Positions 2,950 to 31,991 of a stretch of 64,000 bases of DNA are shown piece after piece. Under the pieces are notes generated by a model. The model searched no databases, had not been told where the DNA came from, and saw nothing but the letters and a program-made list of their open reading frames with translations. The position numbers were made by a program, and so were the translations under genes. Source of the stretch: Hoplostethus atlanticus (Eukaryota > Chordata > Actinopteri > Trachichthyiformes > Trachichthyidae); NCBI GenBank assembly GCA_034670405.1, contig JAXDDX010000003.1:10692501-10756500 (forward strand), written 5' to 3'. The number at the start of each line of letters is the position of its first letter. Within the stretch, counting starts at the first letter, position 1.

Positions 2950-5089
2950 CCCAGTCTATGACATTCCGGTCAATAAATAAAATCTACACACCAAAATATC
3001 AAGAATGCTTTGACATTAATCGTATCCTTCCCTCCTTCCATGCCCCTTTACCTCTGCTATTGCCCCTTCCACCTTCCTCAACTATTCCTTCTTTTCTCCT
3101 CTATTTTCTCCCCCATTTCCTGTCCTGCTCACTTGTTCTTTCTCCCTCCATCCCACCACCACCACCTCCCTGCAGTCCAAGCAGAGTTCGTCCTACTCGG
3201 ACAGGGACACCACAGAGGACGACTCGGAGTCTCTGGAGGACATGGACTTCTTGAGTCGACAGAAGAAGCTGCAGGCGGAGGCCAAGTTGGCCCTGGCTAT
3301 GGCCAAGCCCATGGCCAAGATGCAGGTGGAGGTGGAGAAACAGAATCGCAAGAAGTCCCCTGTGGCTGACCTGGTAAGTACCAGACTTCTGCTGCTGCTG
3401 TTGCTGCTGTCAGATTGATGGTGTCCATGAAGTCCTCCTCAGAAAATGAGGAAGCCTTGGCTAAATGACTCCTATGTGTTTAGATTTTTACCAGTGCATT
3501 TTCAACAGTTCAACAGGAGCTTTTTCTACATGTGGGCGGCTACGGTTGCTTTCAAATACAACAAAAAAGAATTGGTAATTGATTGATCAGGATTTGTAAT
3601 CTATGATTTTATCGACCTCTATCAGCAACCAAGGAATTGCCAGGTCTCTGACACAGCTTATTTTATTTTGGCCTGTCACAAGATGTCACAAGTCACAAAA
3701 TCACAATAGTAATAATAATACTGCTCTGCTTGAGAACAAAACGCTTTGCAACTCTGGGTGCTCGCTCGTAGCACCGTCCCCCATCTGAAGGTGGGGTGAA
3801 GGGGGGACATCCAATGGGCACAGAGCTTGTCAAGTATGGACCAGGAAGTGACTTTTGAAAGCCAGAAATCTCAGCAGCTGGCAGCGTAATCGTTGAGTCG
3901 TTGGTATTGATCGATAACCCTATCAAACCCCTTCAGATATATTATGGTCATTTCGTGCCAGGGGGCAGTAAAAATCCTACTTATTGCACCTTTAAGCTCT
4001 GGAGAATGTCTCATGGTCTCAGACTCATGGTCAGGAGGACACAGTAAATCAGTGTTAGTGTTGGGTGGGTTGTCATTCAGTACTCTGTGACTGTGTCTGG
4101 GGCCTGTTGAAATGGCAAAACCAGGAACAAACAGAAGATGAGGGCTTAACAAGTCCTATGGATGTTGCCACACGAGTCTTCCCTCTCTTCCTCTGCCCCC
4201 ATTCGGAGGGAGGAAGACGGTCACAACATGTTCATCATTATTTTATCCATTTTTATCTGCCTCACTGCCCCTTCAGCAGCACACACACAGACTTCTACAC
4301 ACCATGTCTCCACCTGGGCTGGCAGGCAGAGCACTTTTACTTATTCAGGGCAGAGAGGGGCGGCTCGGCCCGGCGCCTATCTATAATTCATATGCCGGAA
4401 AGCATTGACTTGAGGTGTTTAGGGATGTAGCGGCGCTCAGCAGTCAGAAGACATCACTGTCACACCAGGAAGGAACGCAAGGCCAGGATGAAGATTGCAT
4501 TACGGACTAGAGCAGCCTACACTGTCCAGAACACCATAGATGCACTGAACTGCACGAGTTACTTGTGCTTTATTCCCTCCTTCAACAATCAATCTGCCAT
4601 TATAGCGCTGTCAGTTAGTTCAGTTCAGTTCAGTTGCAAGAAAATGGAACTGTCCTACTTGTTTTGAATTTGAATTTGGCCAGCAGTGTAAGCCTGTGTG
4701 CTCTCAGAAACAAGAGGGGGAAGTGTCTGTGTGTGTGTGTAGATTCATGACTACAATGTCTTTATTCAGAGTGTGTTCTTCCTCTTTCTAATTATATCTT
4801 GAGTCATTAGACAATACTGGTACTGCACGCTTGGAGGGTATTTTGTTTTGTAACCCGGCCGGTGGTGCCACAGAAACTCACAGCAGTCAGGAGAGACTAG
4901 CCTTTTGAGTCGAGCTTACCACCCCGTCACATCTCTCTCTCTCTCTCTGTCACAGCAGTGGCTTCCCACACTGTGACAGTGAAACTGTGACACACGACAG
5001 AATGGAATCCTGTAGCCTTTATCACAGTTGCATCAGTGCCAATGTGAAAGTGAAATAGGGGTGAGAAATTAGCAAGAAGAGCCAGCCAG

Positions 5090-12245: not shown

Positions 12246-13683
12246 AAAAAGTTGTTTTATTCAGTCTTTGCTGCTTTACCTTTATACCCAGAGTCCTTGG
12301 AGGGACTCAAACCTCATGGCTAATATATCAAGTGCAGCAAGGATGGATTGGAATGTGTGTGGTGAATTGTTTAGGGAAAACGTCCTCTTCTCTAAATGTA
12401 AACATTATTGCATTTAAGTTTTCTACTGGCATGGAACACCCTAGACCACTGAACAGTTCAGATGTCCCCATGTTTCTGCAGCTAATCCCACCTAGTGTTG
12501 CGATGTCTGGTAGCAGTGTGAAACCTTGCAAAGGGTATTTGGAGACTCTAAGTAGCCCTTTCTAGATTACTATATAAATGACAGATATGCCAAGAAAACC
12601 TAAGTGGAGCAAGTGTTTTCTTTACCCACATGCAGTTTTTAAGACCTGGTTGTTCAAACCTCTATAGCAAAAAGTGAGCACTCTTCAAAGAAATGTAAAT
12701 ATTGCCAGGTACTACCTGCCCCTGAAGGATATTTATTTCAATTCAGTCCTGAATTTCAATGTGCATGATTCCTCATTTGAGCAGTGTATACGTTTTTGGA
12801 AAATGAGTCAGTCTTAGTTTACGAACACCAATTGTGCTTCCCAATCTTCCAATCAAGGAATGGATTCATAATTCAAGTTTAACAAAGATATCTCCAACCA
12901 GTTCTACAGGTAGAGTGCTGCCAAGTAATCCATATAAACAAACAATACATACATTACAAAAGCAATCATAGGTTTAAAAAAAAAAAGGAGTAAAAAAAAT
13001 TATATGTACATAGTAGAAAACAAAGGTATGTACAAATGTACAAAAGACATGTATGAGACATATCCAAAATATCCAATCCATTATCCTTTGGTCCATCACA
13101 TGCAAGTAGGCGGTAATGCCCAATAGTTTACAGAAAGTCCCACTAGAATAATAGATCAAAATGAAACAAAGTACACAGGTTGAGAAGACAGTTGGGATTT
13201 TTCCCCCTTTTTGCAGTTTCAACACTGCAGCACCTACATGTACATCAAGAACCAGCTACATATTAGCTACCAAACATCCCAATGACCTCTACACGTTGGC
13301 CATTTCTGCTCTGATAATGCTTAGTATCCACTTCTGGTACCTAGAGGTACCTTAAGTACAGCTTTGTGATCCTGCATTCATTACAGGACTAAGGGACCAC
13401 TTCTGAACATAATATGAAAAATGCCCATTCAAGGTTAAGACAGTGGACCTGTCATGAAATGCAGGGCTGCTAAAAGCCATGACTCAATATAAAAATATAA
13501 AGCCAAGTTGTCTTGGCTCAGAAGAAAGACCTGATGCTAGGGCCTGCCCATGTCCAGCCATCAGCAAACATTTCACACGCTGAGATTCAGTGTTTCAGGA
13601 CCAGTAGTCAACCCTGCCATGCTGTGTTCCTGAGTCTTCCCTTTTTGATGATGGAGCAACAGACATCCAGCGGACAACGAAGG
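12246..13683. other. Convergent 3' region; probable 3' UTR of the FIIND-death-domain gene
   Basis: About 1.4 kb with no coding signal on either strand and few repeats. On the - strand an AATAAA hexamer (complement at 12256-12261) lies about 36 bases from the il12a signal, and a run of A/T near 12975-13000 is present. If the - strand gene uses that hexamer, this whole stretch is its 3' UTR; an earlier polyadenylation site cannot be excluded. Confidence 0.4.
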
Positions 13684-16600
13684 TCAAACCCATTCATTTA
13701 GCCCCTTCATGTCTGGGGATAGAGACAACAGAGACAAGAAACAATGACGTCTTTGAGCCTCTATGTATGTGTGTGTTTATGGATGATTATTATCATGTAT
13801 AAGATCGTATTTATATCTATGGATGGCTGTAGTGTGTTACCCATCAGTGTCTGATGGAACTCGTTCGGCAGGTCCTCCAGATCCTTCAAACTCGTCTGCA
13901 GTTTGAACACGGTGGCCTCTCCCGGCAGCCTTTTTTTCTTCCACTCCACAAGCATCTTATGCTTCTGCATGGTCACGTCCTTCTCTGCTGCCTGGATGTT
14001 ATCCAGGTCCCTAGAGCTCAGATCTAGATGGATGGCCACCTGCTTCCACTCCGTCCCCAGCTTTCTGGCCAAAAGCAGGAGCTGCTTCTCTGAGATGTCT
14101 GGAAAAGACACACAAAACACACAGGTAGTTAAGTTAATTTCTACAATTTCTTGACAGAGGGAAAAATCTAGAAATGGTGCCAAGTTTAGCTGTGGGCTAT
14201 TTTCTGTTCAATTTGAATGGAACAAAACAAAGTTGTAATCAAGCCACAGAGTGGCATTTAATGAAGCCTACAAATTGAAGAGCTTAGAGGACTTGATGAT
14301 CTTCCTTTAAGAATATTACCGCCACATCCAAACTGTTTATGTCATTAATAAAGATGTGGAAGGTCACCTGACACGTCTAGCCGAAGTCTTTTATTGGTCG
14401 CTTCTTCCTCGGATACACTTCTGCTCCTCTTTCTGCCTATGAGAGAGATGGAAGTGTGTGTCAACCAACCCATAGCACTGCCATGGTGAAAAGCCTGCTG
14501 TGGTGTGAAAAACAAAACACTACAAGAGAAACAATAAGCTTACTCTGTGTCCTTTTCACTGTTTTTTCTACTGTGTTGTCCACACAGTCACCTGAGGGGA
14601 GGTAAAAGGTAAGCATCATCACACTATAGTGCACTCCCAATCACAAGCAGATGCACACAAGCTCAAATACAAAAAAACACCCAGGCAATCAAAAAGCCAG
14701 GAAATTGTGTACATGTGTACCTTCTCTAATGGTAGCAGACCATACAGTCTGGTCTGAGTCAGTCTCTATAAGAGACAATTTGAAGGGAGGAGGTTGATCA
14801 AAGAATGCTTCAAAGTAGCCTTTCAGCTTAGTTACTGCAAGGGTAAATGGCAAATCCTGCACAGAGACACAGAAATATTAATAGTTTACTTGTGGAATAC
14901 AAAAATACACAAATGCAAGCTACAAAATAATGCAATCACAATATACACCTTTATGTTACACAATATATGAAGTTGCAATATACACATGCATGCACACAAA
15001 CACACACCTCAGGATTGATCTCCCCTTCTGGCTCGCTCATGAGACGGTACGTCCTCTCATCCAGCTTACAGGTAGGAGGCTTCTCTATCTTCATGTAACG
15101 CTTCTTAGAGCTACGCACCTGCTTGCCTACATCCTAATACACACAAAAGAACAGGAGGACAAAAAAACAGGAAATTGAGTCAGTTCCTTGCAGCCACTGA
15201 GGTGGTAGACTGAAAGGTTATTAATACTCAATATAAACACATTTTCCATTGCGCAGACGTTGGCCAGAGCTCTTCCCTGGTGAGATCAGTGGAGGCTGGT
15301 TCACACACACACTCTGACCACTCTGCTTACCAGATATCATGACTAAGATTACACCCACCAGATGCGGGAAAAAAAACACAAAACGCTGCATTTGAGGAAG
15401 TGATGTGTGATTATTATTGTGGTTTGTAGTATGTAGTATGATTATCATCCGCTGCCTCCTCCCAGAGGCACAGAAACATAACTACATGTGTGCACACGCA
15501 CACGCACACACACACACACACACTTCCTGAGTGACTTCTACCTTACAGTGTGACAGGAAGACGGAACATATTATCACATGTGTATTACATGTATCACACA
15601 CACGTGTTACACTAATAGTAATACACACACCAATGGCATCAGTAATACTTGCCATTATTTTCTCTTCCATCAAGGCCACTGTTTAAAGGTGCAGTAAGTA
15701 AGATTTTAAGTCTTTACCCTCCTCCTCCACCACCACCAGACATTTTGGTCTCAAGACAAAAAACAAATGACAAAGCAGTATTATTTTGCATGGTAACCAA
15801 ACCTTGATGTCAGAGGCGTTGTTGGTGGCCAGATAGATGTGGAAGCTGTTGTTGTTGTTGTTGTTGTTGTTTCCCAGCTCCTTGTAGACCAGGACCACCC
15901 CATGGCGTTCCACAGGCTGGCTGGCCTGGACGATGGGACCAACAGGCGACAGAGAGGACACGCGCCACTTAACATGGCTGCCCGAGTGGTCCACTGTTGG
16001 CTCAATGATTGAACGGTTGTCCTTGATGTGAAGGACACTGAGTGTCATCTCATTATCTGGGTCTGTGGGAGCATGTGGGGGAAGCAGAAGGGAAGGTTTG
16101 ATGGGATAGGATGGAACAGGTTTAAACTGTATATCCATTTTGAGAAAATGTTGCTACTTAATTCCTCAGTCAATAAAAAATATCTCATTCTATTTGTAAT
16201 AAAAACTATTTTGTGAGCAAAGGCCTTACAATGATTCCTTTATTAATAATCCATAAATGTGCTTTACTTTACTACTCTTACATCAGATAAGAGTAGGCAT
16301 ACATTTTTTTAAATGGTGAATATCTCATTTTGGAATAAAAGTTAAAAGTATTTCATCATCACCAAATGAATGTACTAGAATGATGCTCCCTTAGTGTTTA
16401 TTTGTAGCAACATTTCAACCTCTGTTGGTCTTCGTCAGGCTTACATTGCTACAAATAAACACTAAGGGAGCATCATTCTAGTGTGTGGGTATTTTTTTTT
16501 CTTACTCTTTAATTCATGACAATTTTGGGGGGACAAAGATAACAGCCTCCCAGTCTGACAACTTGTCTGCCCATCCAGCCCTGCAGTGTCCAGTTATCTC

Positions 16601-17001
16601 AAACCTGTTAGAAATGCCTGGCGTTCACAGCACTGCTGTATGGGCCAGGAAGTCACCGCAGGAGGCCACCATCTTAATTCACCTTTTCAACGGTCATACA
16701 ATGTTGAACGTGGAAGACGTTTAGCTGAACTGTGAAAATACAGATCTAGCCCAGAGCTAGCCTACGTCCTCACCAGCCAGGCACAGGGAGTGGGGGAACT
16801 GGATGGACTTGAGGACAGACGCATCCTTGTCGACTGTGTCCACGTTGAAGATGGGTCCAGCAAACTTCCAGGAGTCCCGGAGGAACATGTCGAACTTGGA
16901 CCAGGACAGGACTGAATAGCGCACCAGAACCCGCTCTGATGCTTCAAACACCAGGCCTGTGACCGAACACTCGTATGTACCCTCTCCTTCCAGCTGTACC
17001 C

Positions 17002-17041
<40 letters not shown>

Positions 17042-20000
17042 AATGATACATAATGAGTCAATATGAATGAGACTAGACAGATGGAGAGTGGCTGCAGAGA
17101 CAAGCTGTCGATACTCACTGTAAGCGTCCCTTAGAGATCTTCCTGGGGGTAACCAGCTCATTGCCATCGCTCTGTCAAACAAACCAACACATCATTTACA
17201 ATCACCAAGTCATCTGGTTTGTGCAAATCCAGGATATCTGGTCTTCCATAACTCACCGGCTGGATGGCTTTGCATTTTTCACAGCTTAATTTGAAGTGCA
17301 TCATATCTGTGAGGATGAATAACAACAGTTAGGTTGTTGGTTAGAAGAAAACTGGCACTATCTCCAGTTCACAGGTAATGCTGCAACACCTCAGTTAAGA
17401 CTTGCTTGTTAATCTTTTGATGACTGCTTGATCGGTCATACCGTTCTCATTGAAAGCCTCCGCTTCAGGTACAGCGGTTGGCTCTGGAGGGTAAAAAAAA
17501 AAAAAAGAGTCCAACATTATCATATGAATGGGGCTGAAATCATCTGAGCAACTGGCAGATTGAGCATTTTGGCCACCTTTTCTTATGATTTTACCATCAC
17601 AGTTTTCACGTGTGAGCAAATACTTGGCAAATACTTACTACTGTATGACAACAGAACGGGCTGCATCTCACACAGTCTGACAAGGCCGATATCAACATTT
17701 GTACTTGGTTTCCATTGCACTATAAGACATGCAGTAAATGCAAGATCGAGATGAGGTATTCAGTTTGTCCAGACATCATTTTGTTTCATGCATCGTCTCT
17801 CACTCACCATTATCACAATCCACAACATCAGGTTTTTCAGTCGCAGATAAATGAAGTGAAACATTGTTTAACACTGTGCAATCTTTACCTTGTGAAATCC
17901 TCGAGTTTCTGAGACTCAGAGCTCAACAGTAAATTGATTATGGGGTGTTAGTTCTTACCTCCCTGTCCTCCATCCTTCTCATCATAGCCTTCTGCTGAAA
18001 GACAAAAGAGGAGAGGGTTAGAAACAGAGACGTGGAGGTAAGCAGTGAGAGAGAGCGGTACGATCTGTGCTGCTCACCAGAATCCTCGTCCTCCTCTTCA
18101 TCTTCCCCTTCATCTTCCTCTGAGCTCTCCTCTGCGGACGTGCTGGTGTTCTCTGTTAGATAAATCCATATTAGAGGGATGCATGAGAGATTTGAAAACC
18201 TTCCACTGAATTTCTAAGTATTCGGGAGTGAAAGGGATTGATCGCACAAAGTTTGAATGTTACAACAGAAGGGATTCGGGTGTAGTGTGCTGAATACAAA
18301 ATTCATTTTGGACACAAACCAAAAATAACAAATTAAATGTCAGAGGCGCTGAGCTTTCCTGCAGATGACTAAAAGTGTCTGTCTTAAGTTTGCGAATGAG
18401 TTGTGGGGAATGACCGAATGACCTATGGGAATATTACAACACTTCTGCTTACCTGATCCACTGCTGTCGCTTTCAGTCAGATTACCTGCAACAACACAAG
18501 GTTAACCAGTGAGTAATTGTTTTGAGGTTAGTGTTGAGGGGTCAACTCTCGAAATAAGTTCCTCTTTCCATCTTTTCCCTTTGTCCCCTAACAAATGCAG
18601 CTCTCAGGGAGACTTTGTGCATTGGTGGCTTTCAGAGTGTCACACGCTAATCTGTAAAGCTTGTATCTATCTTCACCCACTTACTGTAACCCGACATATT
18701 GCGGAATTATGGCACATTGTGGTGAAGGTGGGAGAATAGAATGCGTATAGAAAATATTTCGGCTGTGTCTGTTTGCGAGCAGAGAAAACCTCAAGTGAAA
18801 CCACATAACAATGTTCTCTACTGATGAACTCATCTGTGCATTACACTTTCCACTGACACTATTCACTCTGAAACTCTGCCCACTTCTTACACACTAATAT
18901 CTGGACTCATCTACACTGCACCCAGTATATGACAGTAGTTTACCTGTGTGTTTATGTGTAACGGTAAACACGTTTTTCCATATTAGTCATCAAAAAGACC
19001 CTCAGTGTGACTGGCTTACACCAATAGGTTTTACTCCCCCCATATATCCGTCATTCCTCAGCATCTGAACTGAGGCACCCTGTAAAGAAGCCTCTGGTAA
19101 GTGCCGGGCATTAACATTCTGGCACATTTATACAGATGGATCCAGGGGAGCTGCTATCCCTTTCTGCCCAGCAGCAGTCAGCGTCCATGGACCAGGCCAT
19201 CTGGCTGAGTGCCTGGCTGGCTAATGGATGGAGCCCATCCTCTCTGGGCTGCAGACTTTTATCTCAGACTAACAAGCAGACATGGCCATCTCTGCTCCAC
19301 TCTCAGCACCTCCCTCATCAATCTCTCTCCTCCACTTCTCTCCATCTGTCTGCTTTACCTCTCTCCCCCATTTCTCTCTCCTTGTCCTCATATGCCTCCT
19401 ATGGCCTATCTCTCTCCCTGCTGCTGCCTCATCCAAGCCAGGAGGCATCCCTCTCCACTCCAGTGCAGCCTCTTTCCTTCATCAGACTGACAAACAAGGC
19501 GGAGAATGCACACACACGTACGCAAGCACACACTCAACATCTTCAACACTGTAGATCTTTTAATGGGTGTTGGCTGCCATCTGCTGGTCTAAACCCAGAA
19601 GCAACTAGAAGAAGGGCTGACCTAGGATATACAGTGAAAAAGAATGAGCTAATGCGGCATCTAGAACCAGGGATGCAAGTGCTTGTATGAGTGTGAATAA
19701 CTCTTCTTCTGTCTTTTAAGGCAAATGATAGGGAAAGTGTCGGGGTAGCGAAGTCAAGAGAGACAAAGAGCAGTAAGAGAGGAAGGAAGAAAAAATAAAG
19801 AAAATGAAAGTAGTGATGAATGATAGTTGGGGATGCACACTTCACGGAAAACAAATATTGAAAGGTGGTGGAGGAGTGACATAGTACGATTGTGTGTAAT
19901 TACATCATATTTTATCAACATGTGTCTATAGGTTTCCTCTGGAAGAAAGTGAAAGGAGAGAGAGCAAGCGACAAAGGGAGGGAAAGAGGGAGAGAAAATG

Positions 20001-22702
20001 GGTTAGTGTTTACCTTTTTCGACAGGGGCAGGGATATCTCCATCTCTGTAGGGTAAAAGAGATACGTTAGAAATACTATATAATTTTAATTATATAGGTT
20101 TCACCAAGGATCAGGCAAGGCCTTCTGAGATGTGAGGATATCTTTGGGAACAGGTTAGAGGAAAGAAGGGAAAGGACTTGTCAAATTGTGCAGCTGCAGG
20201 CCCATCTGTGTCAATGGGAGTACACCGCTTCCACTTTCACAACAGGAACCCACACATACGGTGGGAAGCACAAAGACAGGAAGTCTCATGTTCTCATATT
20301 CCGAAACGCCATCCCAGCCTGCAGTGAGGAAACCTCACCTTGCCCCCAGTTGCCACTCTGACCCACTTGCAGGAGAGTGTTTGATGGAGGTACAGGAAAC
20401 CAGCTGTGGAAAGGTACTGGGTGGATACTCGTGCTATGAAACAAAACCACTTACAAGCATAGAGACTATAACAACCCCTTTCCTGCTGAGCTACTTTCTT
20501 AGCTCGGTGTCACTGCATATCAATATCAATGCCCTCTGGCATAATAACTGCATTACGATTATACTGCAAGTAGATATGTTAGATATAATGATGGAAGACT
20601 ATTTAGCTCTCTGAATCTGTTGTCACATGCCCTTTTAGCTAAGGAAGTGATGATAATAAACAATCAATGGACACAATCCATGTGTCCATCCGCAGGTTGT
20701 ATCTGAGCAGAGGACTGGGGCGACCAACCTGAGCTCCAACAAGTGGCAACAGGTCTGAGATCTGTCTAGAGCCAGAGGGAATACAGAGGGTGCTGTCACA
20801 GAGCCAACTGCACCAGAAGAACAAGTTTACCACCAGCACGCGTGGAAAAGTAGGTCACGTCTCATCCTGTGTTTTGGGATTTTTCTTTTTTTTTCCCTTC
20901 TTTTTACTCTTTCACTCTCAATTGTAAAAGTACAGAGCTGGACGATCAAACGGAAAAGTTATGTGTGTGGAGATAAGGAAACAAATCAAATATTGGCCAG
21001 TTATATGGCCTCTGATAATGATGATAAGCCAGAGCGGTTTCCTCTTGTTTTGAAACATGGAAACACTGTTTATACTATTGAAGGTCATTGCCGGCTGAGA
21101 CAGACAGACATCACAACAAAGCAGTAGCTCATTAGTTGCCATGGTAACTGTTATCTTAAGCAAACAATGCCTCCCTGAGTCCATCCCTCTGACACGCCAT
21201 ACCATGCATATACAAATATACTGTTTGCATGAGTTCGCAGTTTCTCTCGCTGTCTCAATTCTCTCTCATATCACTTTTTTTTCGTCTCTCTCTTCCTCAA
21301 AACACTAACCAAATTTCCTCTAAGGCTCTCGGTCTGTTTCTGGCTGAAAGATAAATCGTTTGGATGTTTCCCACAACTTCACATAAACACAATGAACAGA
21401 GAAAGCCTGTGAGTGTAGAGAAACTACTGTCAGGTGGCATGCAGTCTTTAGTTTAAAACAAGGCTGTTTTCCACAACAGTGCAAAAAACTACAACGCTTT
21501 GATACAGTCACCGATTAATATTAAGACTCACTGCTTTCAGTGCTCTTCATAGCGGGTCATAGACTGCCTTTATTAAAAATGTTTTGGTAAGCTGTTACTA
21601 CTACTCCTACTACTCTGTTGCTCAAATAGAGGCTTTTCATCACACTACTAAAGTAGAGACAGTTCAGCATACACGGACATGGTAGACTTTAATACTAATG
21701 CCACTGTGTATTACTGTAGGGTGTAGTGGTGTCTGGTTCATTCAGGGACTTTTCCAGCCCTCATCACTGATATCCAGGCAACAATACAGTAGCATTCCAG
21801 CTAGTAACACTCACCCCTATCACCTTTCACTGCTTGGTGTGCTTGCCTGTGGTTCTTGTTTTCTCAAAAGCACAACCTATAATTAATATTGTATTAACTA
21901 ACTACTCATGAAAAGGATCTGAAATGATTCTGTTGTTTACAGCAGGAAGCTATATAAAATAATTTAGATTGCAACATCATCCCTAAAGAAAAACTATAAT
22001 ATTCCTATAGGGACTCATAGTGTGTCTGTTGTACTCAATGGTGAGTTCACAGTGACTTTATTGTACTGTCATTTTTACCTCCTGGTTTCAATATATTCCT
22101 ATAGGGGCCTATACTTTTGCGGTAATATTACACTCATAAAACGTATTATAGGGTTACTACAGCTTTTTTCGTAAGGGATAACCTTTATCATTATCAACCA
22201 GCTACATATTTGTAATAAAGTGTCCAAATAGGCTGCAGGAAACAACGACAGGCCAGATGTGTAGTAAACTAGCGACAATGACGCAACACCGTGTACCAAC
22301 ACAGCAGCATGCAGCGCAACAAAGATATCGTGGGGCCTCTTCTTCCTTTCTCTTTAGCTCCATGTAGTGCAATATAAAAGATAACTGCACTAAAGGGGCA
22401 GGTGTTTCTGTTGTGCGGTTGTTTGTTTGTTTTCCTCAACATGCAAAACCAGTTTAACTCAAAGTACAACAACAACAACAGTAACAAAAGATAACGCTTC
22501 CTGTATTTAACTTAAGCGGTTTGGCACTGCACGCCTGGACGCCCATTATTTGTTGTCCATAGTATATAGGCAAGAATATTGCTATAAACCTAGAAGTCCC
22601 TTGCTCGTTGTGCCTCTATTTGTCATAATAATTGCACAAAGCTTACCCTTCCTCTAGGTGACAAGCCGCTCCATGGCTCGCCATCTCAATCATCGTCACC
22701 AT
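13684..22702 (-). CDS. FIIND (ZU5-UPA) plus death-domain protein, NLRP1/CARD8/PIDD1-like
   Basis: Sixteen exons, 5' to 3': 22702-22647, 20045-20014, 18485-18453, 18152-18078, 17994-17959, 17483-17442, 17306-17257, 17171-17119, 17000-16774, 16062-15803, 15133-15008, 14856-14721, 14591-14544, 14436-14368, 14098-13841 and 13712-13684. They sum to 1530 nt (509 residues) in one frame. Residues 1-91 are an acidic, Ser-rich tail with no fold seen. About 92-230 form a ZU5-like half (CSVTGLVFEASERVLVRY, SWKFAGPIFNV). About 231-376 form the UPA half (VVLVYKEL, KRYMKIEKPPTCKL, DQTVWSATI). About 380-412 are basic (QSRKRSRSV, NKRLRL), and 414-499 are a death domain (LARKLGTEWKQVAIHLDLSS, then MLVEWKKK). 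His213 and Ser240 match NLRP1 autoproteolysis spacing. No NACHT, LRR or CARD was found. Three in-frame ATGs (22702, 22693, 22684) could start it. The role in death or inflammasome signalling is inferred. Confidence 0.85.
13841..14098 (-). other. Exon 15: death domain
   Basis: Encodes residues 414-500. The pattern LxxLARKLGxxWKxVAxxL, then LDxIQAAEKDVxMQKHKMLVEW and VFKLQTSLKDL, fits the six-helix death-domain fold with its two conserved Trp positions. It is not a CARD or PYD. The donor at 13840 (GATGG|gtaac) gives a short last exon ending in LNEWV; reading through instead adds about 26 residues with a low-complexity end at 13761. Confidence 0.8.
15683..15790. mobile_element. Teleost interspersed repeat fragment
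   Basis: The opening taaaggtgcagtaagtaaga is a widespread fish repeat terminus. The complement of the same phrase (cctacttattgcaccttta) occurs at about 3977-3995 in schip1. Confidence 0.45.
15803..16062 (-). other. Exon 10: predicted FIIND autoproteolysis centre and poly-Asn run
   Basis: This exon encodes residues 202-288. His213 (codon 16030-16028) and Ser240 (15949-15947) are 27 residues apart, as are His1186 and Ser1213 in human NLRP1. The local motif is SSL|SPVG where NLRP1 has PSF|SPMG. Eight consecutive Asn codons (AAC, + strand gtt repeats at about 15848-15871) then extend the turn between two UPA strands. Confidence 0.75.
16374..16482. mobile_element. Perfect 37-bp inverted repeat around a hammerhead-like loop
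   Basis: The left arm 16374-16410 (starts ACTAGAATGATGCTCCC) is the exact reverse complement of 16446-16482. The 35-base loop, read on the - strand, contains CTGACGA ... GAAA, the spacing of conserved blocks in small hammerhead ribozymes of the type found in Penelope-like elements. The helix between the blocks is weak, so it may be a degenerate copy. It lies in the intron between exons 9 and 10 of the FIIND gene. Confidence 0.6.
17003..17038 (-). repeat. (TG)n microsatellite abutting a splice acceptor
   Basis: On the - strand a TG repeat of about 36 bases runs directly into TTAG|G, the acceptor of exon 9 (16774-17000) of the FIIND gene. It stands where the polypyrimidine tract would normally be. 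Confidence 0.9.
18486..20013. other. Intron 2 of the FIIND-death-domain gene
   Basis: About 1.5 kb. The + strand frame at 19136-19690 is CT-rich low-complexity sequence without a recognisable domain, and I do not regard it as a gene. No repeat family was recognised. Confidence 0.5.
20046..22646. other. Intron 1 of the FIIND-death-domain gene
   Basis: About 2.6 kb between the first coding exon and the exon at 20014-20045. It is A/T-rich with no coding signal or long microsatellite. The CCTATAGG-like palindrome recurs near 22005 and 22095. Promoter-proximal intronic elements are possible but unmarked. Confidence 0.5.
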
Positions 22703-23335
22703 CACCACACCACCGTGTAAGCACCTGGTCCCTTCACAGGAAATTGGATCCGATCATCGGCTTTCAGTGTCTGCTTTGTCTGCGGATGCTCGAGCACTAA
22801 GTAAATATTCGCGCGCTGGTCTTCTTCGCCCTCGTGGTTTAGCAGCTTCTAACTACCACTTGTCCATTCGGGCGAGTCATCCTTTCCTCAGCACAAGAAA
22901 ACGTTTTGGTTGAACAGAAAAAAAACACACACACATAACTACAGCCAAAGAATGCAGCCAACGACCTCTTTTGCAGTGTAAATTTGATACTGTTTACCAT
23001 CAGACAGCTCAAACCTGTGTGCGTGCATAAAAACGCAGATCTTACAATCGTGATTTCCGGTAATGCGCTGCACGCCTCTACAGCAGTGTTGTAGAGATCT
23101 GCGATAGTGCGCAGGTATGGCGCAAACGCAAAGGCGACTTAATGAGCCTAGTGGGCGGGGATGCATCATCCCGCCATTAGTGTGAGCTTCGTAGGGTCAC
23201 TGTGATAATTTAGACCAGGGGTTTTAACTTTATAATATTAGGGACACCCCATTAGATGTACACTAGGCTAGGGACCAACCATATACTGAGAACAGTTTTG
23301 TTGTTAGACAGTATCTGTTCTATTGTTGGTGAAGA

Positions 23336-23429
23336 GATAACAGTGCATAAGAGTGAAACCTATTATTCAAACTTCAAAGGTTTTTATTTGAACTTTCAAT
23401 AATAGGTTTCACTCTTATTGACTGTTATC
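23336..23429. mobile_element. Foldback element, arms of about 40 bp
   Basis: The left arm from 23336 (GATAACAGTGCATAAGAGTG...) pairs with the right arm ending at 23429 with only a few mismatches. The centre is AT-rich. On both sides are pieces of a 'rest of element' type sequence (caggggttttaac near 23217; gaggaccccctggaactcc near 23490), so it may be the core of a palindromic MITE or a nested insertion. Confidence 0.65.
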
Positions 23430-24885
23430 AGAGTAGCAGTAACATATAGAGTACCATATGAAATTAAACCATCCCACATTTTTTTTCTGAGGACCCCCTG
23501 GAACTCCATCAAGGACCCCTAGGGTCTTTAGGAGCTACTGATTTACTTGACTTTTTCTAATCGGCTACACACACACACTCGAAGGTTTCTCCTAAAGGCA
23601 ATTATTACAGTGCAATAAAATGAAAATGTCAAGAGAATGGTTTACTATAATGCAATATTAGTATACAGGCTTTGTAGGTAGGCCAAATAACACATCTGTA
23701 TTAATTGGAGAGGAAATTCTAAATTGCACATAAATACAGACAAACAGTGCAGCCACAATGCCACAGTGCAACTAGGTCACTAAAAGCGGGAAAACGTGTA
23801 CATCAGATTACAAGGCTGCATTACATCCAAGACACCACCAGATGTCACATCAGACAATAGAAAGAAGTAGAATTCACCAGGCTACTTCAACAACGCCATG
23901 CCTCACCAAATTTCTCTTTTGCACCGGAAAACACACAAACAATCCTCCACCATTTAAACTTGAATCGTATATTTGACCGAATGAAGACAGAATATCGCAA
24001 TACCAAGTGGTGAATAATGAAATCTAAATCTAAATTTCAGCCAATATCCATTTTAAACATCTATTTTAAACAATGGCATAAGCTTGCTCAGGCACATGAG
24101 AAGTGAGAGCAAGTGAGGGTGGGAGGGTTTTCTGTGAGTGTCTGTGATGTCCAGTGGGAGGAATGAGTGAAGGATCAAGGGCTTTTCTATTGATCCCCTA
24201 CTCATTGATCTTTTTCTTCTTTTTCCTCTCTCCATCCATCTCTCATGGCTGGATATATAGTTAGTTAACTTATATAGATTGCAATTTGTGTCTTTTTGTG
24301 GGCGGGGGGTGGGTACAGTGAGAGAGAGCCAGAAGACTACAGAGAAATGATCCAAGTCTCAGAGTCTAAAGGGAGAGATCAGCTCCTCGGCACAGGGAGA
24401 GATGACACATCAGGCTGAGGCGAGACTGATACCCCGGGAAATGAGAGGAGATAAACTGAGAGCGAGGATTGGAGGAGAGGAAAAGGGAGAAGAGGACATG
24501 ACTGGACAGGAAAGGTCAGGAGGAGAAGAGAATAGGGGAGGAGAGGAGAGGAAATTTGAGAAAAGATGAGGGGAAAGGGGGGAGAAAGGGAGAAGGAAGG
24601 AGAGGAGAGGAGGAGAAAGGCCTTTAGCTTGTATTTTCATGCTTTAGGTGCACTTAGGAATCACATGATATATTGATTGTCATGTAACCATAAAAAGGTT
24701 GGGCAAAAAGCAGGTCTGAGACTGGGCCCAATGAAACAGCCTTCCTTTGTGTGTGTATGGTGCAGTAGAGTATGACAGGGCTTATTTAGAGATGGACCAA
24801 CCTGTTTGGAAACAGTGATGTCACCTACCCTAGAGGGTTAATATGAGCCCTCATTGTACAGACTCATTATCCATCACACACACGC

Positions 24886-24921
<36 letters not shown>

Positions 24922-26881
24922 ACAAAGGCACACAGGCACACACTCAAGCACACACACTCCCAACCACACACATATAAGGATACATATACTCATGCAGGGA
25001 CGACACCCACACGCACTCTTTATAACATACACACATGCAAGCATTTGTGCACATATGCACGCGCGCACACGAACATGCACACGCACACCCACACCCACAC
25101 CAACACACAGATGCACAAAAGGGATCCTCTTACTCTGGAGATGAGGAACGCCATATCCTTTCAATTTCAATGGGCCATTTTGCCATCCAGGCTTAGTTAT
25201 CACTGGAACGATCCATAGCAACAAAAGAGCCTTTCCTGTTGCAGCCTTGCATAAAGACACCAGATAGAGGTGAACGGGGACAAAGAGCAACACCTTTACA
25301 TAGAGAAGACATGGTCCAGCCAGGGTAGACTTCCCCATTCAATCCCTTACAATGGTATGTATCATGTATAGCGCATGGGACTTAGCAGTTCTCTAAAATT
25401 CCTTACTGTACTTACTAAATGAAACTATTAAAGCATGAAATACAAAAGAGCAGTGTTGTAGTACCCAGATCCAGGGCTGGGATTAATCGTGGGCTACATT
25501 TTTCACCATACGTAACTTGATTTGGATTTAATAGTAGATTACTTCTTGGATTCAACCATTGATGACTTGTGACTTCACCCACTACCACACACTGCCGTTC
25601 CCTATGATCATCATCATTATCTGCATCAGGGCTATTTCAACCTGTTTTATTTCTTTATATTAATTATGAAATCTGAATTATTATGAGCCCCTTGGTGTTT
25701 CTTTGTCTCCACAGTTTGTTCTTCCCTCTTTTTCACTTTATATGTGCAAATCAACTAAACCTAAACCTAAAGATATGCTACACTAGACTTTGCTCTGGAA
25801 TTGGCACCTGGAAATCTTTGTTTGATACTCAATGTTGTATTTTCAACCGTTGCCTTAAGCAAGGAAAGGAAAGCAAGCAGGAAATAAGATTGCAAAATTG
25901 CAAATTAATTTTGCAAATTGCAAAATTATAGGGCCTCCAAGTCTTTTGTTATGGATAACTGCAATAAAGGAAATGAAGCAATAAGTGAACAAGACCAGTA
26001 TTTCCCTTTTAAGCGCGTACAGTTGAAGTCTGACAGTATATCACGTTGTGGTTAAGTCTTTTGCGTGCAGAGATGCTTGCATGGGTTCATTGCAGACGAC
26101 CAGCGTCGGTCCCAAGATCATCTTTAAGTCACGTTTCATATCTCAAATTTGTGTTTATCAAGCTGACTTGTGACATGTGTGTCCCTAGAGTTGTTTGTGT
26201 GGGGATTTGACACCTACACAGGATTACTAAAGAGGCATCTGGACTCTTCAGTGCACCCCCCCCCCCCCACCTCCCACTAGAAGGGACTGGCTTTAATTGT
26301 TGTGCATTTTCACATATTAACAGATTTCCTGTCTCTTGACATCCATAAAACTGGATGGAGAAAAGGAAGCAACAGAGGAATGGGGGCCATAATTTAACCA
26401 AAGGGGGGAAAAGAGAGGCTTGTGTGAGTTCGGCCTCAAGGGAACTTGGATGTGAGTTCCTTCTTCAAAGTACACATTAGTTCACACCCTCCTGTCTCTT
26501 ACACAGACTCTCTGCTTACTGCTCTATGGCATACTGTGAGCGAGCCTGCCAGCGTTTCTGTATAATGCGGGTTGTGTCATGGCCTCCCTCCCTTCTCTCC
26601 CTCTCACTGTTGTTGATTCTTTATTTCTGAGCCCTCGGGAACTCTGTACACAGGCCACAGAGGGATGAGGCCTGGGATGTGATGTGGGCGTTTGCTAGGA
26701 GGGACACGGTTGAAGGCCAAAGTCTAGTCGCTTTGGAGGCCCAGACCCCCCCTTCCATGAGTGAGTCAGTGCAGTAGTGCGGAGGCAGGGGGTCAAAAAT
26801 CCCCCTGCCCTCCGCCTCCAGTCAGAAAGTGCGTGGGAACGGGAAAGCTTTATCCTATATTTAACCTCCAGGTGTCTGGGT

Positions 26882-26882
<1 letters not shown>

Positions 26883-26927
<45 letters not shown>
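26883..26927 (+). repeat. (TG)n microsatellite, 45 bp
   Basis: Pure TG repeat in the desert upstream of the C3orf80 homologue. Confidence 0.95.
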
Positions 26928-26929
<2 letters not shown>

Positions 26930-28055
26930 TACACCCCAGGAACTGAGTCATCTGCAGCTGGGTGTTGGTAGATGGGTTATCTTATAGGGGTAAATGAGGG
27001 TGCCCCTGTTCTCAGGGTTGGTTGGGGGGATTTCAGCACTCCAGGAAAAGCTGTATCTGCCCCCCCACCACTCACCCCCCTATGATGAGAATTTCCCCTA
27101 TTAGATTTGTGTGTGTGTGTGTGTGTGTGTATTAAACTTGTGTCAAATGCTAAACGAAAGAAAAAAGACAGGATTTGCGAGGATGGAAAAAAAAAAAGAA
27201 CTGCAACAAAACACAGCGAGCTGATTGGAGAAGTGAAATGTTATCTTAAGTGCGTCTAATGCAGTCAGCTAGATAGTATCATGACTAAGCGAAAAACAGC
27301 TTCTCCCTTAGAGAATAGAAACTCCTTTCTTAACGTAAACACACGGGGTAACATTAGCCAGGCTTCGTATCAGTGGGGTCATTACTGGGGCAATACAGCA
27401 GGTCAGTATTCCCAACAGGCGACACATTAAAACAATGGGATGAATCTACTTAAATCAACTCATTGGATGTTCTCCATTGTATCACGGCCATAGAAAATCA
27501 TCTCAGGCCAACCTCATACGTACTCCCTGCTATTCGCCGTGGTGTCAAAATAGTCGAGCTCAGCACAAAACCTCCCAACTCATCAGACTCATTGAGAGGA
27601 CTGAGTTGGGATTCCCTTGAGATAGAAAAGGGATTTTACCCTACTCTCTCCCCCGTCAGGATTTCTTGGCCTCTCTGAGCGGGTTTCAGTCTTTCTCCTC
27701 AAAGGAAGTCTGGATACCGATTCATCTCCAAGCCAAGGAACACACAACGCCGGGAGAACAAGCCACATAAAGGTAACAGACGCGCACTTTCCTTCAAACA
27801 CATTTGCTGGTGAACACCTCCTCAGACACTCGTCGAGTTCTGTGGATAAGCACATACAAAGTACATGCTATGCACTAGCGATGCTGTGAATTCATGACCT
27901 ATGTCACATTTCATCCCTCTCTTTTAACATCACTCTCCACTACATATTGTCCAGTAAAGAATAAATGGAAAAAATACTTTTCAAACACACCCACACAGAT
28001 GCACTGAAACGTAAATATAGTTGCCCCATACGTAAAAGTATGCCTCTGCCCCCAC

Positions 28056-28089
<34 letters not shown>

Positions 28090-30660
28090 CATACACTTAG
28101 AAGATCTCGAAGCAAGCAGAGCGATAAGATTAACGGAAGTACGTGGGTGTGAAATAGCTGTGGTGTGGGACTTTCTGGATTCACACAATCTACCCTGACT
28201 GCAGGTCCTGCTTTTTATTAGAGTCCAAGCTGATGGGAATACACAGACGCTGATGACACCCACGCACATATCCTGCAATTCCGGGCTTAATACTGCACAG
28301 ATACAGTACTTACTCACACACACACACAGAAAACACATTACACAAACCAACATAAGGCACTCATTCTACACTACACGACCATTCTTGTACATGCTTACAC
28401 AAACAGCGATGCTTTTCAAACAGACACATAGTGGAAGACCTCTTCAAAGATTTGCTCTAAAAACACGTTCTTTTTTTCCCTTAAATACAGAAACCCAGAA
28501 CTGACAGAGCAGTGAATTGGTCCCAGGTCAGTAACCCTGGAGGTGGCGACGTCTGCTCTGCTCGCAAACAAAGAGAAACCCAGAGTCATCAGTGGATCCA
28601 TTAACAAAGCCCAGGGCCCGACAAGGCTTTCTTTGTTTCATAATTAATGCAAACGTGATAACCGTGACATTGAAGGTTGGGCGGTCCGTGCATCAACGTA
28701 TCTGACACACCGATATGAACGCTGCCATTCATCATTACTCAGGGCTAATGGACCCCATAAGGCTGAATTATTAAGCACAACACAAGAGGCCCTTGTGTCA
28801 GATTAATGGAAGCATGCAGCACAGAACATTTATTACACTAATAGTCAGCGTGTTATAGCTTTAATTGTCAGCCATACAGGAGACTACAACTTTATGCTTC
28901 CAGTTCAGCTAATGTAACAGGAGCGCAGTCCTCTTTGTGTCACTGGTGTTAACAGATTAGTTGTGCTGGTCAGCCTTAATTCCTCCTTACTGGTTCACTT
29001 ATTATCCCAACTGTCTCTCTCTCGCTCTACGTCTATCTATCAGTCTGCCTCTCTCCGCATCAAGGAGTCGCAAATCCCATCATCCCTATTCAATCATGGA
29101 AACGCCACTTTCGGTAAATATAGTAGGACGCATCATTACAGTAAAACATGTCCGGAACACTCGTCCCTTTTCTGTCTCCCAGGGGACTCGGTCTCCAATT
29201 AGTGTGATGAGTTTGCGGAAAGCTCCTTCTAGATGGAGGGAGAAAAATAAAGACAGCGGTAAAGAGAGAATTTAGTCAATCAATATTGCTCAACAAAGAC
29301 CAGCACTTTGTAGTGGGTCGCAGGACAAGAAGGAAAAAGGAGGCACAGACTTGAGGAGGAGAGAACAAGACAAACAAGAAGAAAAGAGGAAACGGAAGGG
29401 GAGTACATCTTAATAAATTGCTGCTAAAAGACTTTAGGAATTATACATTTATACATGACTGTAATCTGAAGAGGAGTCAAGTCAATTATGTTTAAGAAAT
29501 ACTGGATTTTCATGGCTGCTCTCTTTCCAACCATGTGTTTCATGTGGGCTACAAGGCCAAGGGTTTTTAAGGTGTCTATACTGTGGAGATAGCATTTTTC
29601 CATAGAGTGAAGATACTGTAGAGACTCTATACATCTGTCAATAATGTAGCTTACTTCTAGTCGACAGAATAACAGAAATAATGGACTCTAAGGGTCTCCA
29701 GACCCCACCTTCAGAAGCAGCGCCCTAGGCTATTGATTGTGTATTTGTTTATCTAGTTAAAGCAGTATGCCCTGCTATCACATTTCCCTAATAGAGGCAG
29801 ATTACAGGCAGAAATATGATGCTGCATAAATTAAGCTGCATGATGCTCCCCTTCTACTGAATTTCACATCGTAATGCTCTGGTAATTGGATTTGGTACAT
29901 TGTGCATTAGGGCTTGTTTAGGAGAGGAACGAATACAGACTGGCTATTAGCGACAAAAGGTAATGTGAAGACAGACGGAGGGAAAAAAAAAAGGATTCTC
30001 CTCATGATTTACATCATGAAGACTTGACAACAGATTGTCGCGACTATATCTCATCACTAAGACCCTCTTCATTTAAGATGGACTGGCAGGCTGCAGTGTC
30101 TTCTATTCCACCATAGTATCGTAAATCCTATTCACTGGGGAAGAGAGGGCCATAATCTTTTCAGATCCAATCAGGACATAAGGCTTCGAAAAGCGATTTT
30201 AGCCAACCTATAGAACCCTGGTGGTAGAAAATGATTTATGTAGTCATTGATTCATTGCAATACAACAAATTACACAGACTGGCTTACTTCATTCATTCAT
30301 CCATATGAAATACTTCCATAACAGCTTACTGAGCAGTCTGTCATTCTTGGAGGCTATCCATTGGGACATCTTTAGTGTAAATTAACACGTTGAGTGAGTA
30401 TAAGATGGAGATTCAGTTTTATGGTTATGTTCTTTAATGCTGCAGACACATGGTTCTCCGGGGTGATACTGCGCTAATGTGAATCCAGACACTCTTCTAA
30501 TGGGGGCCATTTCAACCCACACTGCAAAATCTATTCATTTTTTATGAGGGGTAGATCTGTTGGCGCCTTGTATCGGGGCCAGCAACCTTACTAGTTACAG
30601 CTGGCACTGTTACCATTCAGGGTTCAGTGAGGCTACGTTTTTAGGATGGTTCAGTCCTTT

Positions 30661-30926
30661 AGGGTTCCCAACGTGAGGTTGGGGACCTCCAGGGGTCCTT
30701 GAGAGGGTTCCAGGGGTCTCCCAGCAAAATACAGATTAGTGTAATTGTTTATTTTTTTTTAGCTATAGCACATTGAGAGAATCTGTGGGTGTGATCAGAG
30801 GTCTCTACTACATCATCTCTAACAACAAAAATCTTCTCGGATGGGGTAGCTTGTGACAAAATCTTATCAGATGGAGTCTAAAGAGTTTGGGGGGGTGCTT
30901 TATGTGAAAAAAAATTGGGAACCTCT
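30661..30926. mobile_element. Probable non-autonomous DNA transposon (hAT-like, about 265 bp)
   Basis: The left end AGGGTTCCCAA (30661-30671) and right end TTGGGAACCTCT (30915-30926) are inverted repeats. The inside includes the 'ggggacctccaggggtcctt' phrase typical of fish hAT-derived repeats. Target-site duplications were not resolved by eye. Confidence 0.5.
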
Positions 30927-31268
30927 TCTCTAAAATCATCTGACGGGACAGTTCAGATGAGGTTAGATTTGTCAATTTGAACCAATCAGTGGCATCCACT
31001 TTGCATTGGACAAAGTGGGAACTGAAAAATGGATACAACCTAATAATGTTGTAAGATATTCCCACCGGACAGCATGTGAGGGGGCTTCTCCTCCACTCCT
31101 GTCACCAGTCCAGCAGACAGGGTGTCCTCAGTGAGAAGCCCGGTGGGGGGGCACCTGCTGTCCCGCTCCGCTCTGCAGTGTCTGGGAGAGCGGAGGAGAG
31201 CGCAGGATTAGTGCACAGCTGGGGGAAAAGGCAGACCTGTAACACCTTAACGGACTTTACAACAATAG

Positions 31269-31991
<723 letters not shown>

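Follow-up and report, generated by a model that had tools for sequence, protein, structure and literature searches.

To our knowledge, detailed work on FIIND is confined to NLRP1 and CARD8, where the domain serves to release a CARD. The order ZU5, UPA and death domain is found in UNC5CL, as it is in PIDD1, UNC5b and ankyrins. Mutation of Ser297, His270, His252, Glu279 or Phe296 in CARD8 affects self-cleavage, mutation of Ser295 does so slightly, and the F296H variant is severely defective (PMC3210808). The same study describes the SFS motif as fully conserved, within an alignment limited to mammalian sequences, and places a Leu of UNC5b (Leu677) at the Phe296 position. For Nlrp1b, the V988D substitution abolished cleavage (PMC3334886). 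FIIND has also been described in a fusion with a SAMD9 STAND-like core (PMC5445408) or with TRADD-N (PMC8195603), and piscine NLRP1 carries FIIND-CARD (PMC9978379, PMC12436146, PMC11508797). The SAMD9-family and TRADD-N proteins resemble the gene discussed here in joining FIIND to other death-superfamily or apoptotic domains, and the portions of those two papers available to us do not describe a simple FIIND-death-domain protein. No description of a stand-alone FIIND-death-domain protein was found in the literature searched, as far as its accessible portions go; one may still be in print or sit in a database as an unnamed entry.

The 64,000-nucleotide stretch of Hoplostethus atlanticus DNA analysed here (the window) holds, judged from its sequence, a real protein-coding gene of just this layout. 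Our preferred reading, to which we give a probability of about 45%, is that it is a FIIND gene of the NLRP1/CARD8 family with a death-domain effector, whose product cuts itself and frees a UPA-death-domain fragment. A FIIND joined to a death domain would show one release module driving a different pathway, and the gene has a bearing on the kinship of the inflammasome FIIND proteins with PIDD and UNC5.

In the 547-residue version of the product, Pfam FIIND matches residues 176-305 (1.1e-33, 116.1 bits, cut-off 25.8), UPA-FIIND residues 309-427 (1e-23, 84.5 bits, cut-off 27) and Death residues 457-526 (4.7e-7, above its curated cut-off). No further Pfam family, including ZU5 and UPA of the UNC5/ankyrin type, matches this model up to E 10. 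A scan of the minus strand from 13600 to 31200 in three frames, with stops read through, returned no NACHT, LRR, PYD or CARD at E <= 0.05; the sole row beyond the gene's own domains was a sub-threshold MlaE match. NCBIfam, whose models cover bacteria and archaea, gave no match for the product, and no relative of the gene was found on viral contigs. The FIIND half finds rat NLRP1 in the PDB at 6.4e-10, human NLRP1 at 7.6e-7 and CARD8 at 6.3e-6. A profile of this FIIND with NLRP1 and CARD8, which thus contained those two proteins themselves, retrieved seven PDB sequences at E <= 10, all NLRP1 or CARD8, with no UNC5, PIDD or ankyrin among them. An earlier sequence-only reading had described a stand-alone FIIND with a death domain and without NACHT, LRR or CARD, had called the FIIND half most like NLRP1, and had proposed a profile search as a check; all three domains lie above their curated cut-offs, the strand scan between 13.6 and 31.2 kb agrees with the layout, and rat NLRP1 is the best PDB match.

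Set beside the known systems, the product shares with CARD8 a stand-alone FIIND that follows a disordered N-terminus and precedes a death-fold effector, together with five residues around the cleavage site. It differs in having a death domain rather than a CARD, Leu rather than Phe before the cut, and only 21% identity in the FIIND; no CARD match occurs on the minus strand at 13600-22750, and the death domain stands in its place. With NLRP1 it shares a post-cut sequence that starts with SP, but it lacks the PYD, NACHT, LRR and CARD. PIDD1 has the same ZU5-UPA-death-domain order, and its death domain heads the PDB matches, with THOC1 next; the product, however, has no LRR, reads SLS where PIDD1 has HFS, and carries ZU5-UPA of the FIIND type rather than the PIDD type. 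The order is also that of UNC5b, UNC5CL and the ankyrins, and UNC5b likewise has Leu where CARD8 has Phe296, yet the product lacks Pfam ZU5 and UPA of their type.

The gene was modelled from genomic sequence as 17 candidate exons on the minus strand, running from an ATG at 22702 to a TGA at 13684 with the frame open throughout and GT-AG at every proposed internal border (Table 1). Splice sites were ranked with a simple score built on textbook frequencies, with all AG and GT dinucleotides of both strands of the window as the reference. By this measure 15 of the 16 acceptors stand at or above the 81st percentile, the exception being that of E6 at the 44th, and all 16 donors stand at or above the 84th; the E7 acceptor is at the 92nd. 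The protein has 547 residues with both E6 and E7, 520 with one of them and 493 with neither. Because the E6 acceptor is poor and that of E7 middling, the chain most likely comprises 15 or 16 exons and 493 or 520 residues. The start, stop, strand and domain order of the sequence-only reading, which had joined 16 exons, are retained in this model, while its 509-residue product was not reproduced (493-547 residues here). Homology backs E9-E14 and E16: the end of E9 and E10 align with CARD8 from residue 160, E10-E14 with FIIND/UPA, and E16 encodes the death domain. For E1 the backing comes from the CpG peak at and just upstream of it, and E2-E8, E15 and E17 were placed by splice sites and frame only. 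Residues 1-108 of the 493-residue model have a pI of 4.1, with 33 Asp and Glu against 5 Lys and Arg.

Table 1. Positions in the window of the gene's candidate exons, its probable promoter and the neighbouring genes
Feature	Position	Strand	Basis
SCHIP1	3020-3418		PF10148
IL12A-like exons	about 9.9-11.7 kb	+	read by eye; joined, Pfam IL12 2.1e-5, 24.5 bits, just under cut-off 25
Exon 17, final codons (DMKGLNEWV) with the TGA stop	13684..13712	-	frame; acceptor 99th percentile
Exon 16, death domain	13841..14098	-	Pfam Death 1.5e-8 on exon alone
Exon 15, basic linker RKRSRSVSEEEATNKRLRL that by eye looks like a bipartite nuclear localisation signal	14368..14436	-	frame and splice sites
Exon 14, UPA end	14721..14856	-	Pfam UPA-FIIND
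Exon 13, UPA segment, 42 aa, phase 0/0, IEKPP motif of UPA-UPA interface	15008..15133	-	flanking donors coincide with those of the FIIND genes on C391, C251, C256
Exon 12, ZU5 end with possible self-cleavage site (SSL/SPVG), UPA start, Asn8 run	15803..16062	-	Pfam FIIND/UPA-FIIND; NLRP1/CARD8 alignment
Exon 11, first part of ZU5 (FIIND) subdomain	16774..17000	-	Pfam FIIND
Exons 9-10 (17306-17257, 17171-17119), lead-in to ZU5 subdomain	17119..17306	-	CARD8 alignment from residue 160; FIIND profile match starts in E10
Exons 2-5 and 8 (20045-20014, 18485-18453, 18152-18078, 17994-17959, 17483-17442), acidic low-complexity N-terminal part	17442..20045	-	splice sites and frame only
Optional exons E6 and E7	17888-17808, 17719-17639	-	splice sites and frame
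Exon 1, start ATG (MVTMIEMASHG...), then two further in-frame ATGs	22647..22702	-	frame; donor 99th percentile; edge of window's CpG o/e maximum
CpG-rich probable promoter region	22400..23200		CpG o/e 0.82-0.94 in 500-base windows starting 22401-22801; window mean 0.34
Gene taken to be C3orf80	31269-31991		PF15843
IFT80	37-44 kb		PF23387 and PF23335

The 633-Mb assembly that includes the window contains at least nine FIIND stretches at no fewer than five loci, the studied gene among them. The other four were scanned on the FIIND-coding strand, C264 over its frame. At three of these four (C264, C391 and C256) a CARD lies downstream of the FIIND, and at the fourth, C251, a PYD. C264 is a single open frame of 735 residues with a long N-terminus, FIIND, UPA-FIIND and CARD (L009:5837-8041; G000:C264:269837-272041), a single-exon gene of CARD8 layout that may be retroposed and whose cut site reads F-S. 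For the remaining three, flanking domains were placed by genomic position rather than by a transcript shared with the FIIND: C391 (L011; G000:C391:46582-52122) has LRR, PRY-SPRY, FIIND and UPA-FIIND with a CARD downstream; C256 (L013; G000:C256:99292-105000) has a 970-residue frame in which a STAND NTPase matches below threshold, and after it FIIND and CARD; and C251 (L015/L016; G000:C251:100762-107127) has CARD and PYD upstream and the PYD downstream on the same strand, with no CARD downstream of the FIIND in the 97-107 kb scanned. C256 resembles the SAMD9-FIIND combinations outlined in the accessible part of PMC5445408. The strand scans of C251, C391 and C256 found no death domain. At least 28 death-domain matches occur in the assembly, one of them the studied gene; none of the 28 found lies on the contigs of the four other FIIND loci, and because the other 27 are all absent from those contigs, the death domain appears as an exception among the FIIND genes of this genome. 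Here a FIIND-UPA-CARD gene of CARD8 layout (C264) coexists with the FIIND-death-domain gene, so the latter is not simply a local stand-in for CARD8.

Intron positions speak to the origin of the FIIND half. Donor positions were read off the genomic sequence at places picked by eye where similarity stops. Two phase-0 donors within the FIIND are common to all four intron-bearing loci (the studied gene, C391, C251 and C256), following ...SDIK, VPLQE, VSIPE or PALQQ at one position and ...INPE, IQPK, IQPE or ICPE at the other. A phase-1 donor in ZU5 is common to three of the four, C256 being different, and C264 has no introns at the FIIND donor positions. Because donor position and phase are common to the four intron-bearing loci, the FIIND is, on sequence grounds, of true FIIND descent. 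It stands on an old branch, with an identity of 21-28% to the six other FIINDs compared. A tree of the seven groups C264, C391 and C251 (100/99) and NLRP1 with CARD8 (99/99) and leaves the studied FIIND on a long branch of its own; with a midpoint root, used for drawing only, this branch lies in the half of the tree occupied by C256 and the mammalian genes. Exon 13 corresponds, by alignment and by a residue range (1262-1305) that we take to be that of human NLRP1 exon 14 and used to match the borders, to that human exon. It encodes 42 residues against 44 for exon 14, which is skipped in DEFCAP-S (PMC7370280, in the portion available to us).

Whether the product would cut itself depends on the ZU5-UPA junction. 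In the alignment, the residues equivalent to CARD8 His252, His270, Glu279, Ser295 and Ser297 are all kept, and the catalytic Ser and activating His (Ser297 and His270) are invariant in it. Just before the cut, Leu takes the place of Phe296, giving SL/S rather than SF/S. Across the genome's FIINDs the cut-site dipeptide is L-S in the studied gene and C391 and F-S in C264, C251 and C256. A Pro lies four residues past the Ser, at what counting makes the Nlrp1b Val988 position. We would put self-cleavage at SL/S, judged from these residues, at somewhat better than even; a cut there is predicted to leave a C-terminal fragment of 254 residues, about 29 kDa, beginning with Ser-Pro. The gene offers a natural case in which to ask whether FIIND self-cleavage tolerates Leu at the Phe position. 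It had earlier been proposed as a CARD8-like sensor, and of that proposal the layout of FIIND plus death-fold domain stands, while the self-cleavage it implied is weakened by the Leu and a gene of CARD8 layout already exists in C264. The Leu, matching UNC5b Leu677, and the Pro could also be read as marks of a FIIND protein that lost self-cutting or never had it, a closed ZU5-UPA-death-domain switch like that of UNC5b in which a binding event would open the chain without proteolysis; that C391, a second FIIND locus, also has Leu-Ser fits this account. A protein that does not cut, however, would need neither the nucleophilic Ser nor the two His and Glu279, all of which are kept, and Leu, being hydrophobic, might occupy the pocket that takes Phe. 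We consider the non-cutting switch improbable, although it deserves more weight than the other alternatives below.

The effector half has mixed affinities. Its closest death domains in the PDB are those of PIDD (1.7e-5), THOC1 (5.3e-5) and CRADD (4.5e-4). Among the 27 other death-domain matches listed for the genome, L017 is the closest (1.8e-10) and itself matches human THOC1 at 4.9e-19; L032 (3e-6) and L021 (6.9e-6) come next. L032 groups with human CRADD in the death-domain tree at 95/96, and L021 is presumably a RIPK1-like death domain. With the human PIDD death domain as the query, L021 scores 3.3e-9 and the studied gene 6.7e-9. The tree places the studied gene without support, where long branches meet. 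No PIDD1 stood out among the 28 death-domain matches. PF10461 (Peptidase_S68) has no match in the product; the search of the genome with this family found nothing anywhere, controls included, and so says nothing on a separate PIDD1. A misread PIDD1 is rejected on the absence of an LRR on this strand from 13.6 to 31.2 kb, the FIIND-type ZU5-UPA and the FIIND intron positions. The kinship with PIDD and THOC1 in the PDB, the THOC1-like L017 as nearest relative in the genome and an exon 15 linker that resembles a bipartite nuclear localisation signal would suit a regulator that acts in the nucleus, in DNA-damage or RNA-processing stress, and not in immune sensing, but the FIIND half is of the NLRP1/CARD8 type, no LRR lies on the strand between 13.6 and 31.2 kb and the tree gives the death domain no supported placement, and we find such a role quite unlikely. 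It is very improbable that two genes, or a decayed one, have been misjoined and the FIIND and death-domain exons belong to separate transcripts: E15 does join them by frame only, but frame, phase and strand fit across E14-E15-E16, both introns are shorter than 300 bases, there is no stop or frameshift, and UPA is followed by a death-fold domain at C264, C391 and C256 as well.

We return to the self-cutting FIIND-death-domain protein. At the UPA-UPA interface, for which residues have been named in rat NLRP1 (PMC8081665), two of the four named residues are kept (P1034 and P1035), while N1032 is replaced by Glu and V1037 by Cys. The observed domains, shared introns and active-site residues can be placed in a model whose release steps are borrowed from the work on NLRP1 and CARD8, as given in the accessible portion of the same paper. 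At rest, the ZU5 half would be packed on the UPA strand, keeping UPA and death domain silent. The chain would make its own cut, though perhaps at a slow rate, at the Leu-Ser that separates ZU5 from UPA, and both parts would stay associated until cleavage or degradation of the acidic, disordered N-terminal half frees the C-terminal fragment. The freed fragment would oligomerise via UPA, and the clustered death domains might then engage an adaptor or effector that itself has a death domain, in the place of ASC and caspase-1; CRADD, acting with caspase-2, is a candidate. The overall working would be CARD8-like with a different output. Speaking for it are the domains above cut-offs, the active-site residues, the shared introns, P1034 and P1035, the CARD8 layout and a CRADD-like death domain (L032) in the genome. 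Speaking against it are the Leu before the cut, the Pro at the Val988 position, the changes at N1032 and V1037, a weak model of the death domain from a single sequence (pLDDT 61) and a nearest death domain in the genome that is THOC1-like and not CRADD. Because a CARD8-like layout ends in a death domain and not a CARD, the arrangement suggests a sensor module wired to a different death pathway. A wider claim, which we hold doubtful, is that the gene represents a third class of FIIND output: a tripwire of the CARD8 kind in which the UPA ring, once freed, would nucleate death-domain signalling (through CRADD-caspase-2, FADD or RIPK1) rather than ASC-caspase-1, in an old lineage beside the FIIND-CARD genes that bridges PIDD-type ZU5-UPA-death-domain proteins and the inflammasome FIIND proteins.

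The gene had been placed between IL12A and C3orf80, and the PF15843 match on one side and the IL12A-like exons on the other support this; the name C3orf80 for the former is our assumption, in line with the sequence-only reading. That reading described the gene as inserted in this interval; a loss in mammals would fit equally well. Two or three p35 genes occur in teleosts, and grass carp has both of its copies close to schip1 (PMC8481787), so that the locus may be one of two such p35/schip1 blocks. No counterpart of the FIIND-death-domain gene is named in the portion of that account available to us.

The window's highest CpG o/e (0.94) falls at 22701-23200, at and just upstream of exon 1, with 0.90 at 22601-23100, and some 950 bases past the stop codon there is a candidate AATAAA. 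An (AAC)8 repeat at 15847-15871 encodes the eight Asn in the UPA subdomain of exon 12, a coding microsatellite whose length may vary. A plus-strand open frame of 191 residues (19115-19690) lies within intron 2 and has a low-complexity look. A pure (AC)17.5 repeat (17004-17038) abuts the exon 11 acceptor, and the polypyrimidine tract there therefore reads, on the coding strand, as repeated GT.
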